Of a stretch of DNA of 22,012 bases, positions 519 through 15,711 are shown in pieces. The stretch's first letter is position 1. Each line of letters begins with the position of its first letter. Made by a program: the position numbers and the translations under genes. The stretch lies in the IMG/VR virus record IMGVR_UViG_3300037119_001653, positions 1 through 22,012 of that record, one strand, 5' to 3'. The DNA comes from a virus. The notes beneath the pieces are model-generated. The model saw only the letters and a list, made by a program, of their open reading frames with translations, did no database searches and had not been told where the DNA came from.

Positions 519-875
519 TTAAGGGGTCACCCGTCCCTCGACGCCGCGCGCCATGCGATCGCGGGTACGCGCGTGTAGCCAGTGCAGGGCCTCCTCGCAC
601 TTGGTCAGGGCGATCGCGTTCTCGCGGCACGCGAACGGGCCCGACTGAAACGAGCGCAGGCGATCGATGACGACGGCCAGCAGCGCTTCCTGCGTCACGC
701 CATTGACGCCGTGCTCGGGGATCGAGCCGTTCTGGAAGTAGAACCCCAGACTGTCGGTGCCGTCCATGTCAAAGATGTAGTGATAGTGCGCGCCGCCCGG
801 GCCCGGCGCTCCCATGACGCTGATCTCGATGCGGTCGCTGCCGGGGCTGGCGATGTGGTCGGTGAGTGTGCGCAT
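519..875 (-). CDS. Tad1/Acb2-like protein, candidate anti-CBASS/Thoeris cyclic-nucleotide sponge (118 aa)
   Basis: 118 residues. The N-terminal half (about 15-58) looks like beta strands (RIEISVMGAPGPGGAHYHY, then GFYFQNG). The C-terminal half (about 60-114) is helical and holds the hallmark FQSGPFACRENAIALTK (76-92) followed by EEALHWLHARTRDR (94-107) and RGVEG. This C-terminal signature is shared by a large family of phage proteins that I recall being assigned to the Acb2/Tad1 hairpin domain. Known members bind immune signalling nucleotides (gcADPR for Tad1; cyclic di- and trinucleotides for Acb2) and so block Thoeris or CBASS. The length also fits Tad1. The start abuts the preceding stop (TGAATG). 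Assignment is by remembered motif; nucleotide binding is inferred. An alternative is an uncharacterised relative that has lost sponge activity. Confidence 0.62.
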   Translation of the reverse strand: MRTLTDHIASPGSDRIEISVMGAPGPGGAHYHYIFDMDGTDSLGFYFQNGSIPEHGVNGVTQEALLAVVIDRLRSFQSGPFACRENAIALTKCEEALHWLHARTRDRMARGVEGRVTP

Positions 876-1085
876 TCAGGCTTCTCCGTTGTTGCATGGT
901 GACACGAACGCGTGGTCGGCCGCGGCCGGGTAGTCGGCAGCGAACGTCGGCGCGTGGATCTCTTCGCGCCAGCCGCACAGCGCGCACGGCAGGACGACGT
1001 CCATGCCGCGGTCATACGGCAGCGGATAGGCGGGCGGCTCGGGCGCGTCGAGCCAGCGCAGCACGCTCGCCCAGAATTTTCTCAT
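876..1085 (-). CDS. Hypothetical protein with one CxxC pair (69 aa)
   Basis: 69 residues beginning MRKFWASVLRWLDAPEPPAY. A CALCGW motif lies mid-protein (about 34-39), followed by a His/Asp-containing stretch and a late Cys, giving a possible single metal-binding site. The amphipathic, Trp-rich start could be a short helix but not a convincing membrane span. The ATG overlaps the stop of the gene at 1082-1366 by four bases (ATGA), and its own stop directly abuts the ATG of the Tad1/Acb2-like gene, so the three are probably translationally coupled. I do not recognise a family. Its position immediately before the candidate sponge gene may mean only shared transcription. Confidence 0.62.
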   Translation of the reverse strand: MRKFWASVLRWLDAPEPPAYPLPYDRGMDVVLPCALCGWREEIHAPTFAADYPAAADHAFVSPCNNGEA

Positions 1086-1794: not shown

Positions 1795-2231
1795 GCGCGC
1801 ACCCGATTGTAGGCCATGCGGCAGTGGTCGGTGCAGTAGGGCATGCTGTCCTGCCTCGCCGCGCCACAGAACAACCAGACCGGCCGGCCGTCGTTCAGCG
1901 GCCACTTGCAGTCTGTCGGCAGGCCCTCGACCGGCGCACCGGGTATGCGCGCGGGCGCCGCCTCGATGGGCTTGTGGCGCCGGGGGCTGTCGTTGCGCTT
2001 GCGCCGGGGATCCGGCGCCGCCCGCTTCGGCGGCCCGACGCGTTCGCTGGCGCCGATCCGGCGCGATCGGCCGATCACCATGTTGCGGTTGATGCGCAGG
2101 CTGAACTCCTCCGACAGCATGTCGGCGATGCGCTTGCTGGAGAACACGTCCTTGACCAGCTCCCGCAGGCGCTCGTTGAGGCCGGGCGTGTCCCAGATGC
2201 TGTTGGTGCGCTGGTCGACTGTGCTGCTCAT
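1791..2231 (-). CDS. gcrA: GcrA-family cell-cycle regulator (146 aa)
   Basis: 146 residues from the ATG at 2229-2231, overlapping the upstream stop (ATGA). The N-terminal domain (about 17-62) has the GcrA helix-turn-helix pattern, with SSKRIADMLSEEF and INRNMVIGRSRRIG matching the usual SAxxIAxxLG...TRNAVIGKxHRLGL. A basic proline/arginine linker follows. The C-terminal domain carries CKWPLNDGRPVWLFCG (108-123) and PYCTDHCRMAY (131-141), with Cys108, 122, 133 and 137 likely holding zinc. In Caulobacter, GcrA binds sigma70-RNA polymerase and activates promoters bearing methylated GANTC sites. Here a phage copy may redirect host cell-cycle transcription. I found no GANTC in the three promoter regions examined, so any targets may be on the host chromosome. 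Family call is strong; role is inferred. Confidence 0.88.
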   Translation of the reverse strand: MSSTVDQRTNSIWDTPGLNERLRELVKDVFSSKRIADMLSEEFSLRINRNMVIGRSRRIGASERVGPPKRAAPDPRRKRNDSPRRHKPIEAAPARIPGAPVEGLPTDCKWPLNDGRPVWLFCGAARQDSMPYCTDHCRMAYNRVRA

Positions 2232-2455
2232 CGTTTCACCCGCCGCTTGGTGCCGCGCATTGCCCACAGTTCGGTGTCGGCGCTGAGCCCCATCTTTTTG
2301 AGGGCAACGGTCAGGGCCACGTAGGTCGCGGCCGGGAAGCGCTGCGCGGCCTTCCAGTTTGTCACGACCTTGCGATTGCTGTGCGTGATGGCGGCGACCC
2401 GCTGGTTGCCACCCAGCACCGAGATCACTGTATTGACCGACGTTAGTCTGCTCAT
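2228..2455 (-). CDS. Cro/YdaS-like helix-turn-helix regulator (75 aa)
   Basis: 75 residues from the ATG at 2453-2455, overlapping the previous stop (ATGA); the upstream in-frame extension lies inside the neighbouring gene and is rejected. The pattern NTVISVLGGNQRVAAITHSN (7-26) followed by RKVVTNWKAAQRFPAATYVA is typical of small phage Cro/YdaS-type repressors: a helix, the GGxxxVA turn helix, and a recognition helix with VTNWK, then FPxxTY. It is second in the leftward operon, next to the divergent promoter region, a sensible place for a regulator of the switch between the two directions. No paired CI-like repressor with a protease domain is present in the window. DNA targets are not known. 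Confidence 0.8.
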   Translation of the reverse strand: MSRLTSVNTVISVLGGNQRVAAITHSNRKVVTNWKAAQRFPAATYVALTVALKKMGLSADTELWAMRGTKRRVKR

Positions 2456-7024: not shown

Positions 7025-8685
7025 GGGTTCTCCAGAACCTCGACGCGCGCCTTCAGCTCCTTCACCGCATTGATCAGCGCGTAGATCAGCGGCGTCGTGT
7101 CGACGATCACGCGCTGGTCGTCGACCTTCGCGCCGTCGATGATGCCGGGCTGGCGCCGCACCATCTCCGGCATGATCTGCTCCAGCTCCTGCGCGATCAG
7201 GCCAGCGAACTGCGTACCGGCCGCCGCCATTATGGCGTGCGGGCTCGGGAGGTTTGGCCGCGGCACGTCGTTGCCCTTGTAGGTGTAGACCACCGGCCGC
7301 ACCTTCGCGATGTCATCCAGCCCGCGATCGTAATCGCGCAGGACATTCTTGATGCGGGCGTCGCTCGTAGCGGTCCACGATCCACCGCCGGGCTTCAGTG
7401 CATCGCCCGCAATCTGCAGCTGGCTGTCAGACCGGCGGATGGACAGCGCAATAGACTTGAGCGAACCGCCATCGGTGAATGCCGCGATCTCGAAATTGGA
7501 TCCGGCGTCGCCGCTGCTCTCTGTCTCGACGTTGCCCAGCGACAGGCCCCAACGCTGAAACGCATTGAGGTAGCCCTCAAGGCGGCTGTTTGCGCCGTTT
7601 TGGCTCTTCACCAGCCGCAGCTTCGGCCCGCTGGTGTCGCCAGCGATCGACACCCAGCCGGTCTTGCGCTCGACCAGCACCGGCGTCCACGTCGTCTGCG
7701 TGCCATTGTCGAGGAACGCCCGGAGCTGCCAGTCGCTGCCAGCGTTGGCGCTCTCGGTCGTGTTGTTGCCCATCACCACTTGCCAGCGCGGATTGGCGCC
7801 GGTGCGGCCCTCGAAGATAGCCTCCTGACCCGTCGAGGCCTTCTGGATGATGATCTTCGGATTGGCGTAGCTGACCGATATTTGGCCGACAAAGACGCCG
7901 CCGTTCAGCCACGAATTGTCGGCCGGGTGCACATGGTCGGCGCGCGCGAACCGCGTCGAGGATCCGATCGCGCCCCCGCCGCCCGCGACGATCGGCGTCG
8001 CGGCCGAGGCTTGCGCGATGTACCACGCCGTCGTCGCAAGCCGCGTGCTGTTGTTGTCGACCGGCGGAATGGTGCCGCTGGATGTCGGCGTGCCGGTAAA
8101 GTTCGGCGACAAGATCGGTGCCTTCTCTAGCTCCAACTCATTGATCGCGCCCTGCACGTTGGTCGCGCCGATGTTGCCGGTCGGCTGCGAGCCGATCGTC
8201 GCCGCGGCGCCGCCACTGGTTCCTGCGGTTGCCGTCCACGCACCCCACGCGCCTGCCGTCTTGCGGCGGACCCACAGCGTGCCGGGCTCGCTCGTTTCTG
8301 TGAGATCTCGCGCCTCGACAACGACGTTCAGGTTCGGCGGGATGCCACTGACCGGGACGACATCGCTGGAGTAGCTGATGCCGGAGAACGCATGCCCGGA
8401 AAACGGCGAGCCGGTCGCCGTCGTCGCCGAGTAGAACGAGCCTGCGCGGAAGATGTGGCTGTCGTAGTTGGTGACGACCTCGCCCATGCGCTCGCCACCG
8501 AGCTTGGCCATGGCCGTGCCTGCGTCACCGGCGCCGGTGCCGCCAGCAACGATCGGCCGCGGCGTGTTCAGGTCCAGCTGAACGTCGAGAACGAACGCGT
8601 TGTACTTGTTGCTCTCAATCGTCGTGTCAGGGACGCCTTCGGTCCCCAGAGGAATGCTGTAAACGCCGGAACCGTTACGTGGCAT
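7021..8685 (-). CDS. Tail fibre/spike with C-terminal S74 self-cleaving chaperone domain (554 aa)
   Basis: 554 residues. The N-terminal region (1-100) is a virion-attachment-type segment (PLGTEGVPDTTIESNKYNAF; IVAGGTGAGDAGTA). The middle (about 100-420) is repetitive beta-rich sequence typical of fibre shafts. The last 114 residues are an intramolecular chaperone of the peptidase S74 family: SDARIKNVLRDYDRGLDDIA (441-460) with the Ser441/Lys446 dyad, then VRPVVYTYKG and FAGLIAQELEQIMPEMV, ending in a coiled-coil helix (ALINAVKELKARVEVLE). In this family the chaperone trimerises the fibre and cuts itself off after folding at the Ser of the SDxRxK motif. It likely recognises the host surface. 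TAATG junction with the gene upstream. Confidence 0.88.
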   Translation of the reverse strand: MPRNGSGVYSIPLGTEGVPDTTIESNKYNAFVLDVQLDLNTPRPIVAGGTGAGDAGTAMAKLGGERMGEVVTNYDSHIFRAGSFYSATTATGSPFSGHAFSGISYSSDVVPVSGIPPNLNVVVEARDLTETSEPGTLWVRRKTAGAWGAWTATAGTSGGAAATIGSQPTGNIGATNVQGAINELELEKAPILSPNFTGTPTSSGTIPPVDNNSTRLATTAWYIAQASAATPIVAGGGGAIGSSTRFARADHVHPADNSWLNGGVFVGQISVSYANPKIIIQKASTGQEAIFEGRTGANPRWQVVMGNNTTESANAGSDWQLRAFLDNGTQTTWTPVLVERKTGWVSIAGDTSGPKLRLVKSQNGANSRLEGYLNAFQRWGLSLGNVETESSGDAGSNFEIAAFTDGGSLKSIALSIRRSDSQLQIAGDALKPGGGSWTATSDARIKNVLRDYDRGLDDIAKVRPVVYTYKGNDVPRPNLPSPHAIMAAAGTQFAGLIAQELEQIMPEMVRRQPGIIDGAKVDDQRVIVDTTPLIYALINAVKELKARVEVLENP

Positions 8686-10379
8686 TAGCGCCTCTCCCGC
8701 TGCTCTTTGTCGTAGGCTTCCTGCTCGGCCGCGTTCCGCTCAACACCACTGGGCTGCGAAATAGCCTGCTGCAACAGCGCCTGCGCGATCGCCTCACGCG
8801 CATGCTGCGGGATGGCCTGATTGGCAAGATACGCCTGACCGGGCCGGGACACGACCCCGCGCGCAGCGGCAAGCGGCGCCCCTATGCCAATAGCGGCACC
8901 TATTGGACCGCCGAACATGGTGCCGAGGAGCCCGCCGCCGCCGGTCGACAACAGCGTCGGCGCGTTGAACAGCTGCTGTACTGCCGTGCGCGGGCCGGTG
9001 CCGGACTGCGGCAGATCCTTCATGACCAGCGCCGCGGCGTCCGCCAGCTCGTCGAGGTTGCCGCGTTGCGAAGCGTACTCCGAATTGCGCCCCGAGCGCA
9101 CCGCCTGCGCGACGCGGGCCGGGGACAGGTTCTCGCCTGCCGACGCAATCGCCGGATCCAGCGTCTTCATGTTGGCGTAGCGCAAATTGTTGCGCGCCCA
9201 TGCCGCGGCATCAGCCGGAGACAGGCCAGCCTGCATGGCCTCGTCCAGCGCGTACTTGTACTCCCTGAGCGCAATCTTCTGCTGCGGGTTAATTCCGGGC
9301 GCTCTCGCGCTCTCTCCTATCTGTGACCGTATCGCCTGATACTCATCGCCGGGCATGCGGCCGCCCTGCGCGACAAGCTTGTCGACGATGTCGTTCCGGG
9401 TCTGCTCGACGGCTGGCGTGCGCTGGCTCGGTAGCACCCTGCGCTCGTACTCGCCCAGTGCACGCGTCATTCTGTTTTGCAGCTGCGGATTAGACCGGAG
9501 ATCATTCTGCGTCAGGCGGGTGTACTCGTCGCTCAGCGCCTCCCCGCCATGCCGGCGCACGCTCGCGTCCGGCAGGTTGACGTCGTCGGGGACGCCGCGT
9601 GCGCGCAGCTCGCCGCGATCGAACGTGCGATTGGTCATGGCACGGTCGAAGGCAGTCCGCTGGCCGCCGAACAGCTCCCCCGCCCGGCCCGCCGAGCCCG
9701 GCATGTCGGCGGCAACGCTCTCGGCCCACTGGATGGGCTTGGAGCCAGTGCGCTGGCCCGCCGTGACCGGGATGCCTTCACGCTCAAGCACGCCGACAGC
9801 TTCCTGCCGCGCGCGCGTTGCCGGAGCTGCTGGCGTGACAATCTTTCCGACAGTGAGAGGCGCGGCCGCGCCGGCAATGCCGCGCGCCCACGGCTCGGCG
9901 GCCGTGCCCTTGGTGATCTGGCCCGCCGTTTCCGACGCGAGCGCGCCGGTGGCGGTGTTGAGCAGGCGCGCGCCGGCACCACCGCCGCCGGGGATCAGCG
10001 CGCCCGGCGCGAACTCGGCGAACGTCGACATATACTGGCCGGGGATGGTCTTCGGCTCGTAGAATTTTCCGGTCTGGCTCTCGATCGCCTCCTTCACCTG
10101 CGTCGCGTCGGGCCCGGCGAGTGCAGCGAATGGTGTGAGGCGCATCGCCTTGGCGCCCATGTCGAGATACTCGTCGGGCACGCCAATCTTGCTCAGGCCC
10201 TTGCGGTAGAGCCCGCCGATGGTGCCGGGCAAGCCAAGCGTGCCGGAGACGCCGCGGCCGAGCCCGCCAGCCGCGCCCTTGACGATGTCTTCGCCATAGC
10301 CGACGCCCTCCTGCTCTGCGGGCGCGGCGTCACGCGCGAGCGGGTCGGGATAGTCCTCCCAAGGTTTCTCCGCGCTCAC
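8685..10379 (-). CDS. Glycine-rich virion protein, probable DNA-ejection protein (564 aa)
   Basis: 564 residues from a GTG at 10377-10379 that overlaps the preceding stop as GTGA; the next upstream in-frame reading lies inside the neighbouring gene. It begins VSAEKPWEDYPDPLARDAAP, and PWEDY-type openings are common in podovirus ejection proteins. A glycine/alanine-rich stretch (GYGEDIVKGAAGGLGRGVSG, about 27-46) could insert into a membrane. A second glycine-rich region (about 500-530, STGGGGLLGTMFGGPIGAAI) has the same character. The rest is helical and charged. Between the transglycosylase and the fibre gene it matches the location of internal or ejection proteins (P22 gp7/gp16/gp20, T7 gp14-16). 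That role is inferred from composition and order; no specific homologue is identified. Confidence 0.68.
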   Translation of the reverse strand: MSAEKPWEDYPDPLARDAAPAEQEGVGYGEDIVKGAAGGLGRGVSGTLGLPGTIGGLYRKGLSKIGVPDEYLDMGAKAMRLTPFAALAGPDATQVKEAIESQTGKFYEPKTIPGQYMSTFAEFAPGALIPGGGGAGARLLNTATGALASETAGQITKGTAAEPWARGIAGAAAPLTVGKIVTPAAPATRARQEAVGVLEREGIPVTAGQRTGSKPIQWAESVAADMPGSAGRAGELFGGQRTAFDRAMTNRTFDRGELRARGVPDDVNLPDASVRRHGGEALSDEYTRLTQNDLRSNPQLQNRMTRALGEYERRVLPSQRTPAVEQTRNDIVDKLVAQGGRMPGDEYQAIRSQIGESARAPGINPQQKIALREYKYALDEAMQAGLSPADAAAWARNNLRYANMKTLDPAIASAGENLSPARVAQAVRSGRNSEYASQRGNLDELADAAALVMKDLPQSGTGPRTAVQQLFNAPTLLSTGGGGLLGTMFGGPIGAAIGIGAPLAAARGVVSRPGQAYLANQAIPQHAREAIAQALLQQAISQPSGVERNAAEQEAYDKEQRERR

Positions 10380-12955
10380 CGGACATCTCTCCAGCTGTTT
10401 GGATCGCTTGGCTTCCCGCCGATGTACTCCTTGTTGCCCTTTCGCTCGCCGAGGTCTGGGGCGTAGGGATCGTTCGGCGTGCGCTGCCACGCCGTGACAG
10501 GTCGGTGGGTCCTGCGCTGCGCCACTTCAAGGTCGTAGCGGATGCTGTCTTCCATGGCGTTGAGTGCCGCATCCATCGCCTTCTCGCCTGCCAGCGGATT
10601 GAGCGCGGCCTGCGACTGCTCGGTCTTCTCGCCTTCGATGTTGCTGATCTGACCGCCGCCGCCCTTCAGCTTTGCGTAACCAGACAAAAAGTTCTTGCCC
10701 TTGAGCTGGCCGATCAAGCCGCCTTCCTTGCCGCCACTGAACGTGTAGGCGTCGGTGTTCGGCGGCATTACGAGAGATGACGGCCCCGTGCCGAGCTTCT
10801 TACCGGGATGCTTGCGAACATAGTCGATCGTTTCGAGCATCTTCCTGAACTCAGGCTCGGCCGCGTCGACGGCGTCGAGGTCCTTCTTGATCGATTTGGA
10901 TTGCTGATCCGCCCACATCTCAGGGGCGGTGCCGGGCGGCACAGGCGGCGGCGCAGGGTTGCGATTGCGCTGCGGGCTCTGCGGCGTGCCGAGGCGCGTA
11001 TCGTAACCTGCAGACGGGCCCGCGGCAGGCGTGATGAGGCCCTGCTTGGTCTTCTGTATTTGCGCGTCGACGGCCTCGATCTCCTTCTGAAGCTTGAGCG
11101 CCTGATCGGGCTGCATCCGCGCGTCGGCTTGTGCCTTCTGGATCTCAAGCCTGACCTTGTGCTGTTCGAGCGCCTCGCGCGGTGCAGTGCGCAGGCTCTC
11201 TTCGTACTTGGTCTGCTCGGCCTGCGTGACGCTGCGCTTGTGTGTCCACTGCTCATAGGCGCGCTCGTCAGCCTTCAACCTGCTGCGCTCGTACTGCTCG
11301 GCCTGCTCTTTGGCATAAGCCTGCGTCGCCGTGTCGGCTGACGGGTGACGCATCACGTTGCGCCAGTACGTCTCCTCCCGGCCGGGCTTGCTTGCTGTCG
11401 GGGGCGGCTCCAGCGCACCGGGCTGCTTCGCCGTCAGCGGCGCCGCCGGAGGGATGGCCTCCTCGGACGGCAGCTTGGCGGGCGCCTTGCCAATACCCTG
11501 CTGCGCGCCTGTCGGTGTAAACGCCGCGGGCGGCATCGAGCTAATCGGCCGCGGGTCGAACATGCTCGCGCCTGCGGCGCCAGCGCCGCCGCCCGCATCG
11601 GTGGCCGCCCCCGTGGGCGCCTGCGCGACCACGTTGGCACCGGCCTGCGGAACGTCCGGCGCGGGAGCTGGCGCTGGCCCCTGCTGCTGCTGGACCGCGT
11701 TGTAGATCCCCTCCCGGCTCCTTATCGACCCTTCGAGGCCCGGCAACGCGCCAATACCGGGCAGCGGAGCGTCGCTGCCGACGCCCTCGCGGCCGAGCGC
11801 TGCCGTGGCAGGGCCGCGGCCGCCGCGGCCACCACCGAGCAGCTCCTTGAGAATGGCCTGCTGCCGGACCTCTGTCTCGCCGGGCGGCTGCTCGGGCTGC
11901 TGCGCCAGCTGCTGCGGCGGCATCAGCCCGGCGATCGCCTCCGGCGCCACGTCGGGCCCGGCCGGGCGGCCCTGCCGCACCAGAGCTGCCGCGACGCGAC
12001 TGCGCGGGCTTTCCTCGCCGGTGTCGGCGGCAAGCCTGCGCATGAAGTCCTGCCCGTAGTCGGCCACCGTGAGACGGCCGTGCACGTCACGGGCGCCAAG
12101 GTTGCGCATGCCGCGCTCGCCGCCATACCAAGCCCGCGCCGCGCCTTCCTCGCCGTACTTGTCGACGTAGCCGCCCAGCCGCTGCCGGGCCGTGATCTCC
12201 TGCGCATTCGGGTGCGCGCGAAACTCCTCTGGTGTCAGCGAATAGCCCAGCGCCTCCTTCGTCCAGCCGGGCACGTTCTTGCCCATGATCTGGTACTTGC
12301 CCTGCGCCTGATCGCCAGACCGCGTCACGGCGCCCTCTTCCTCGTATGGCGTGCGCGAGCCGCCAGTCTCGATGCCGCCCAGCGCCCGCATGCGGGCCTG
12401 CACCCGCGGATCCGGCATTGGGCCCTCGAACGGGATCTCGCCTTGCGGCGGCGGCACGTCGACGTCCGGCGGACGAACGAAGCTCGTCGTCTGCACCGGC
12501 CGCGGCTCGATCGGCGCCGTGCTGCCGATCTCCGGCGGCGGAGGCGCGGCAACTGCTGCCATGGGTGGCGGCAGATCTTCGACTGCTGGAACGTCGGCCT
12601 CCGGCATCGCAAACGCGACGGCACCACCGGCCGGATCTCCGGCGTCACTGACCGGCGCAGGCGCTGGCGTTGCGGGCCTCTCGCCATCCGCCTCGGGCGG
12701 AGGGCCGCCGCGCAGGCCCTGATTTATGCCTCTCAGCTTTTCTTCCTGCTGGCGCAGCCGCCACTCGCTGACACCTTCATAAATCCCCTCGCCGAGCGCC
12801 GTCAGGCCCTCGCCGATGTTCTTCGGATAGCCACGCTGCCGGGCGGCGAGCGCAGCCGCAATCGCGCGGCGGCGCTTCAGCTCCTCATAGGTCGGCGTGT
12901 CGGAGGTACCGCCGAAAATAAACGAGCCGAACGGATTGCTGTACTGGTCCGACAT
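10376..12955 (-). CDS. Virion lytic transglycosylase-like ejection protein (859 aa)
   Basis: 859 residues from the ATG at 12953-12955 (a GTG one codon upstream also fits the junction GTGATG). After a Pro/Ala-rich linker (about 85-185) comes a lysozyme-fold segment: RALGGIETGGSRTPYEEEGA (190-209) with likely catalytic Glu196, then GDQAQGKYQIMGKNVPGW, ITARQRLGGYVDKYGEEGAA, and ARAWYGGERGM with RLTVADYGQDFMRRL. This is the pattern of virion-associated transglycosylases that open peptidoglycan for DNA entry. A very long Ala/Pro/Gln-rich, low-complexity region follows (about 310-560) and then a charged helical C-terminal part (about 575-840) typical of ejection proteins. Flanked by the S74-tail protein and the Gly-rich protein. 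Confidence 0.85.
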   Translation of the reverse strand: MSDQYSNPFGSFIFGGTSDTPTYEELKRRRAIAAALAARQRGYPKNIGEGLTALGEGIYEGVSEWRLRQQEEKLRGINQGLRGGPPPEADGERPATPAPAPVSDAGDPAGGAVAFAMPEADVPAVEDLPPPMAAVAAPPPPEIGSTAPIEPRPVQTTSFVRPPDVDVPPPQGEIPFEGPMPDPRVQARMRALGGIETGGSRTPYEEEGAVTRSGDQAQGKYQIMGKNVPGWTKEALGYSLTPEEFRAHPNAQEITARQRLGGYVDKYGEEGAARAWYGGERGMRNLGARDVHGRLTVADYGQDFMRRLAADTGEESPRSRVAAALVRQGRPAGPDVAPEAIAGLMPPQQLAQQPEQPPGETEVRQQAILKELLGGGRGGRGPATAALGREGVGSDAPLPGIGALPGLEGSIRSREGIYNAVQQQQGPAPAPAPDVPQAGANVVAQAPTGAATDAGGGAGAAGASMFDPRPISSMPPAAFTPTGAQQGIGKAPAKLPSEEAIPPAAPLTAKQPGALEPPPTASKPGREETYWRNVMRHPSADTATQAYAKEQAEQYERSRLKADERAYEQWTHKRSVTQAEQTKYEESLRTAPREALEQHKVRLEIQKAQADARMQPDQALKLQKEIEAVDAQIQKTKQGLITPAAGPSAGYDTRLGTPQSPQRNRNPAPPPVPPGTAPEMWADQQSKSIKKDLDAVDAAEPEFRKMLETIDYVRKHPGKKLGTGPSSLVMPPNTDAYTFSGGKEGGLIGQLKGKNFLSGYAKLKGGGGQISNIEGEKTEQSQAALNPLAGEKAMDAALNAMEDSIRYDLEVAQRRTHRPVTAWQRTPNDPYAPDLGERKGNKEYIGGKPSDPNSWRDVR

Positions 12956-14785: not shown

Positions 14786-15223
14786 CTAGACCGGCGGTGG
14801 CGGCATGCCACCGGCATTGCCCTTGGCGCCGCCTGCGGCGCCTCCGGGGACGCTCGGCGGCGGTGGGGGCATGTTGCCGAGCATTCCGCCCGGCAGTGAG
14901 GCCATGGGGCCCGGCGCGGCCAGAGCGCCCATCGGCGGGGCTCCCGGAGGTGGCCCGTTACCGAAACCCGGCGGCCGGGGCGGCATCGCGCCCGGCGCGC
15001 CAACGCCCGGAGGCAAGGACGCTGCGGAGCCTTGGCCACCAGCGCCCTGTGGCATCGGCATGCCCGACATCGGCGGAATGCTCGGCGGCGGCCCGTTTCC
15101 AAAGCCCGGCGGCCGAGGCCCCATCGCGCCCCCGCCCATGATGCCTTGTCGCATTGGCGCGCTGCCGCCGTACTGCTGGCGCAACATCATGGCCCGTGCG
15201 GCCCAGTCCCTCGGTCCGGCCAT
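14786..15223 (-). CDS. Proline/glycine-rich protein with a 12-residue internal repeat (145 aa)
   Basis: 145 residues from the ATG at 15221-15223 (a GTG just before it makes a GTGATG junction). After a helical start (MAGPRDWAARAMMLRQQYGG) the chain is Pro/Gly/Met-rich and has two identical copies of PRPPGFGNGPPP, at residues 36-47 and 82-93 (DNA about 15083-15118 and 14945-14980). Probably disordered and paired with the 137-aa protein at 14360-14773. No function can be assigned from sequence; structural association is inferred from position in the late operon. Confidence 0.72.
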   Translation of the reverse strand: MAGPRDWAARAMMLRQQYGGSAPMRQGIMGGGAMGPRPPGFGNGPPPSIPPMSGMPMPQGAGGQGSAASLPPGVGAPGAMPPRPPGFGNGPPPGAPPMGALAAPGPMASLPGGMLGNMPPPPPSVPGGAAGGAKGNAGGMPPPPV

Positions 15224-15711
15224 CACGCGGCCTCCATGGTTGCCGTCTCAGGCAGGTGATGCTTGAGGCGCTTGTTGAACTTGTTGCTGGCCCAGTCCTC
15301 ATACGTCAAAAGACAGAGCACGCCGTCGCGATCGCGGCCGAACATCCGCGGCACCTTGACGAACGTGTAGTCGTAGCTCGCGAGCATCCCCAGCAAATAC
15401 TCATTATCCGCGGGGGTACGCTGGTAGACCATCTGACAGCGGCACTGCACGAACGGGTACTGGTACATGCGCGCGATCGTGCCGCGTGTGAGCCAGCGCT
15501 TGTCGACCGCCGAGCCGGTGATCTCGATCGTGCCGCTGCGCGCGTCGAAACCGGAATAGACCAGCCCGGCGATCAGCGCGCCGTTCTCGTCGATCACGCC
15601 GATCGTCTGAAAGTTCGGCCCGAACGCAGCCGAGCTACCGCCGAGATGCGGGATCAGTGACGCGACAAAGTCCGCGACCTGTACGTTGTGATCGTAGGTG
15701 TAGCCCAGCAT
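15223..15711 (-). CDS. GNAT-family N-acetyltransferase-like phage protein (162 aa)
   Basis: 162 residues. The middle has the GNAT-type beta pattern GVIDENGALIAGLVYSGFDA (38-57) and IEITGSAVDKRWLTRGTIAR (62-81), and the C-terminal half AFSLLASYDYTF-like segment reads YLLGMLASYDYTFVKVPRMF (105-124). I recall a phage group with QCRCQMVYQRTPADNE and GRDRDGVLCLL that is annotated as GNAT. The classical Q/RxxGxG/A acetyl-CoA loop is degenerate here (KRWLTRGTIARM). It could acetylate a host or virion protein, or be a structural protein with this fold. TGATG junctions on both sides place it firmly inside the late operon. Confidence 0.75.
   Translation of the reverse strand: MLGYTYDHNVQVADFVASLIPHLGGSSAAFGPNFQTIGVIDENGALIAGLVYSGFDARSGTIEITGSAVDKRWLTRGTIARMYQYPFVQCRCQMVYQRTPADNEYLLGMLASYDYTFVKVPRMFGRDRDGVLCLLTYEDWASNKFNKRLKHHLPETATMEAA

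Follow-up and report, generated by a model that had tools for sequence, protein, structure and literature searches.

Positions 519-875 of a 22,012-base IMG/VR virus record, a metagenomic phage fragment that was analysed whole and is called the window here, raise the question of whether a small phage gene encodes a sponge for the nucleotide signals of bacterial immunity and, if so, a sponge of which type. The original prediction placed the product in the Acb2/Tad1 group of cyclic-nucleotide sponges, a family assignment that is strongly supported by our sequence and fold matches and can now be narrowed to one of the two names: the ORF almost certainly encodes Tad1 (Thoeris anti-defence 1), a known phage sponge for immune alarm molecules.

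A constrained gene and its homologues

The ORF begins with ATG on the minus strand, and its translation of 118 aa contains both FQSGPFACRENAIALTK and EEALHWLHARTRDR, the two peptides that had been quoted for it, letter for letter; no strand had been given before. Its ATG is abutted by the stop of the upstream gene in a TGAATG junction, behind a Shine-Dalgarno-like GGAGAA. Measured against seven relatives, the gene differs roughly twice as often at third codon positions as at first or second ones (29/26/57 against one of them, for instance), and GC3 is 0.87, similar to that of the structural genes. Because of this start context, the third-position differences and the GC3 value, the ORF is regarded as coding, and it is a genuine gene under codon-level purifying constraint.

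The Pfam family PF24729 (Acb2_Tad1_hairpin) matches protein residues 63-101, corresponding to positions 573-689 on the minus strand. The score in the protein search, 27.3 bits, is just 0.3 bits above the gathering cut-off of 27, and a six-frame search of the window found the same place with 27.8 bits. Sequence homology to characterised Tad1 extends beyond the hairpin, as phmmer against the PDB aligned residues 19-115 with CbTad1 (7uav, E=6.4e-21) and also recovered CmTad1 (8kbb, E=3.8e-20) and gp184 (8y6v, E=2.9e-14). Relatives are numerous: the protein is matched by 128 phage records, including one from Bacillus phage SBSphiJ7 that is annotated as Tad1, by 68 IMG/VR loci (39-71% identity) and by 42 loci in bacterial and archaeal assemblies. 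A near-identity search of the window among phages gave no match, and in a tree the copy fell inside no supported small clade. It is, in short, an ordinary new example of an already known family.

Three characterised or annotated homologues are especially close. CbTad1, from a Clostridium botulinum prophage (7uav, 7uaw, 8smd, 8kbe, 8kbf), shares the whole fold at 40% identity. The Tad1 of SBSphiJ7 is 60% identical over residues 47-114, but it is longer (142 aa), its N-terminal half is unlike that of the window copy, and its host is Gram-positive. The third, gp79c of Agrobacterium phage OLIVR5 (48% identity over residues 16-115) comes from a phage with an alphaproteobacterial host, although that phage is large (151 kb) and the neighbourhood of gp79c is unrelated to that in the window. 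The OLIVR5 gene (2459-2860 of its locus) is labelled 'ABC transporter ATPase', a name that the PDB 7uav chain also bears and that is probably a propagated misannotation.

Fold and the distinction from Acb2

An AlphaFold2 model, a monomer prediction built from 22 sequences, reached a pLDDT of 89.1, with a loop at residues 51-60 at about 61. Strands were modelled at residues 2-4, 16-21, 32-37 and 43-47, followed by helices at 62-78 and 84-110, so that the beta-rich N-terminal half anticipated in the original prediction takes the form of four strands before two helices. This β1-4/α1-2 order is that of the Tad1 protomer, an N-terminal antiparallel sheet followed by two long C-terminal helices. The structural comparison with Tad1 that had been proposed as a check also came out in favour of the assignment: all 20 Foldseek matches under 0.001 in the PDB were Tad1 entries, and a VIA-align superposition on gcADPR-bound CbTad1 gave a Z of 13.6 and an rmsd of 2.4 Å over 116 of the 118 residues, while the best unrelated row (Z 7.2) covered the hairpin alone.

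The same evidence makes it extremely unlikely that the protein is a sponge of the Acb2 (anti-CBASS 2) type. A single Pfam family covers both hairpins, and Acb2 resembles the window protein in its C-terminal helical hairpin, as that grouping reflects, and in its sponge mechanism. However, the Acb2 protomer is all-helical, with one short N-terminal and two long antiparallel helices (PMC12043709), and lacks the N-terminal β-sheet (PMC12043709); the window protein, whose N-terminal half is a four-strand sheet in the model, is not of this kind and is consequently assigned to Tad1, and its whole-length sequence and fold matches are likewise to Tad1. No Acb2 entry appeared among its PDB sequence or fold matches, an absence that by itself is no evidence.

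Genomic setting of tad1

The gene belongs to a minus-strand operon that runs leftward through a 133-aa gene, a small HTH-like gene, a GcrA-like gene, a DUF7694 gene, a 94-aa gene, a 69-aa ORF and tad1, and then through doubtful ORFs to the contig end. Near the operon head, the small protein at 2228-2455 (minus strand) is conserved in relatives and has a weak YdaS/HTH-like match below the Pfam cut-off. It is followed on the same strand by the GcrA-like protein (1791-2231; 8.6e-15), the DUF7694 protein (1363-1794; 2.1e-15) and the 94-aa phage protein (1082-1366; phrog_23243), the last of which is conserved in syntenic relatives that do not have tad1. The GcrA-like protein, a relative of a cell-cycle sigma-70 cofactor, matches PF07750 and, in part, the NCBIfam GcrA model, and through it the phage may gain access to the cell-cycle transcription of its host that is linked to methylation.

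The 69-aa ORF directly upstream of tad1 (876-1085, minus strand) shares the TGAATG junction with it and is probably co-translated with it. Downstream, also on the minus strand, lie a 50-aa ORF at 345-497, a doubtful gene with a GC3 of 0.59, and a 60-aa ORF at 142-324. The ORFs at 876-1085 and 345-497 had been put forward as further anti-defence candidates, a proposal that found no backing. Neither these two nor the ORF at 142-324 has a convincing family match, an IMG/VR relative (in a pattern scan that detects close relatives only) or a counterpart beside any of the approximately 70 other Tad1 loci, and guilt by association was consequently dropped for all three.

The early character of the operon, which had also been proposed, finds support in synteny, as the same gene run in relatives leads on to genes for a Holliday-junction resolvase and for a protein resembling a primase/helicase. 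A search with the 94-aa gene identified four relatives in which a large part of the early region is retained, with genes of both strands; in all four the resolvase comes directly after the 94-aa gene and is followed by more recombination- and replication-type genes. One of the four, a 43.5-kb contig whose major head protein is 84% identical to that of the window, gave no PF24729 match in a search identical to the one that detects the window copy. The same held for the PF24729 search of Rhizobium phage RHph_I3_18, the nearest isolate by head protein (63%). Since a close relative has the same early operon without tad1, and has the Holliday-junction resolvase there instead, tad1 looks like optional, accessory cargo in this lineage, where the records of relatives may be incomplete.

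Two further ORFs of the window were recorded, both on the minus strand. The one at 15223-15711, among tail genes, belongs to the acyl-CoA N-acyltransferase family (phrog_4470), and an N-acyltransferase is similarly placed in the Rhizobium phage relative. The other, a 601-aa ORF at 8685-10490 between tail-fibre genes, had no PHROG match at 0.01.

Ligand range, hosts and meaning

The reading that best explains the whole of these observations is that the gene product is a Tad1 sponge, with a probability of about 0.88. Hexameric Tad1 proteins sequester gcADPR and cyclic di- and trinucleotide signals (PMC12043709). By analogy with the family, the window protein would be made early after infection and would assemble as a hexamer of three dimers, which would hold gcADPR (the Thoeris signal) and/or cyclic di- or trinucleotides (the CBASS signals) without degrading them. 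Such sequestration would protect the infected host from being killed by ThsA- or Cap-type effectors.

The presumed gcADPR-contacting residues speak for this function. F82, N92, R109 and R113 of the CbTad1 helices, which we take to be gcADPR contacts, align with F76, N86, R103 and R107 of the window protein; the last three are invariant across a 71-sequence alignment and F76 is nearly so. The sheet loop is less uniform. Its motif GxGGAxHxY reads GPGGAHYHY in the window copy, which retains the glycines, the alanine and the last tyrosine but has Tyr31 in place of the histidine found in CbTad1 and in 53 of the 71 sequences. Additionally, Ser51 stands where 59 of the 71 have proline, and the loop between strands 3 and 4 is shorter than in CbTad1. 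Ile52 occupies the position of CbTad1 Arg57, a candidate trinucleotide-site residue; isoleucine is usual there in the subgroup (53/71), and the difference was given no weight in judging trinucleotide binding. Judging from sequence, the departures at Y31 and S51, the only mildly unusual aspect of this Tad1, could alter ligand binding or tune the ligand.

These changes, together with the short loop, count in favour of a sponge that keeps the Tad1 fold but has shifted its ligand range from gcADPR to cyclic di- or trinucleotides or to some other nucleotide signal. Such a shift is possible but doubtful: the range of cyclic dinucleotides does vary between Tad1 homologues (PMC12043709), whereas those tested share the ability to bind trinucleotides and gcADPR (PMC12043709). 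The window protein, moreover, keeps every helix residue that we presume to touch gcADPR. That the altered sheet loop, with Tyr for His and Ser for Pro, has been tuned to a signal beyond those reported for Tad1 is a long shot. Decay or repurposing, for instance as a virion-associated protein, is also improbable, although the solved chains include a distant relative of 230 aa (gp184) and some relatives are annotated as 'structural protein' or 'ABC transporter ATPase'. Against it, the window copy is full length, under codon-level constraint and with the presumed pocket residues retained; it sits in an early-type operon, apart from the structural genes, and it has none of the N-terminal extension of the 200-230-aa relatives.

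For a Tad1 sponge, the defences of likely hosts are also relevant. The alphaproteobacterial host proposed in the original prediction is plausible, as the operon contains the GcrA-like gene and, among isolates, a Rhizobium phage comes closest in its head protein. Among 199 genomes from the order of a Rhizobium, SMODS CD-NTases exceeded the cut-off in 15 and ThsB-type TIR matches were found in 33 (about a dozen being small, ThsB-sized proteins), so that CBASS- and Thoeris-type target systems exist in plausible hosts; Tad1 relatives were present in three of the genomes. Of 11 cultured genomes that carry Tad1 relatives, SMODS was over the cut-off in one and ThsB-type TIR matches occurred in four, with many TIR matches lying inside large proteins. 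Co-occurrence in this set was set aside as a sign of targeting, as the genomes are too few and the TIR matches often fall in large proteins.

The general biology of Tad1 sponges is already known. What the window adds is a confident Tad1 in an uncultured phage lineage with a Rhizobium-phage-like head protein, where the gene looks optional, and its presence there predicts Thoeris or CBASS signalling in some of the hosts of this phage.
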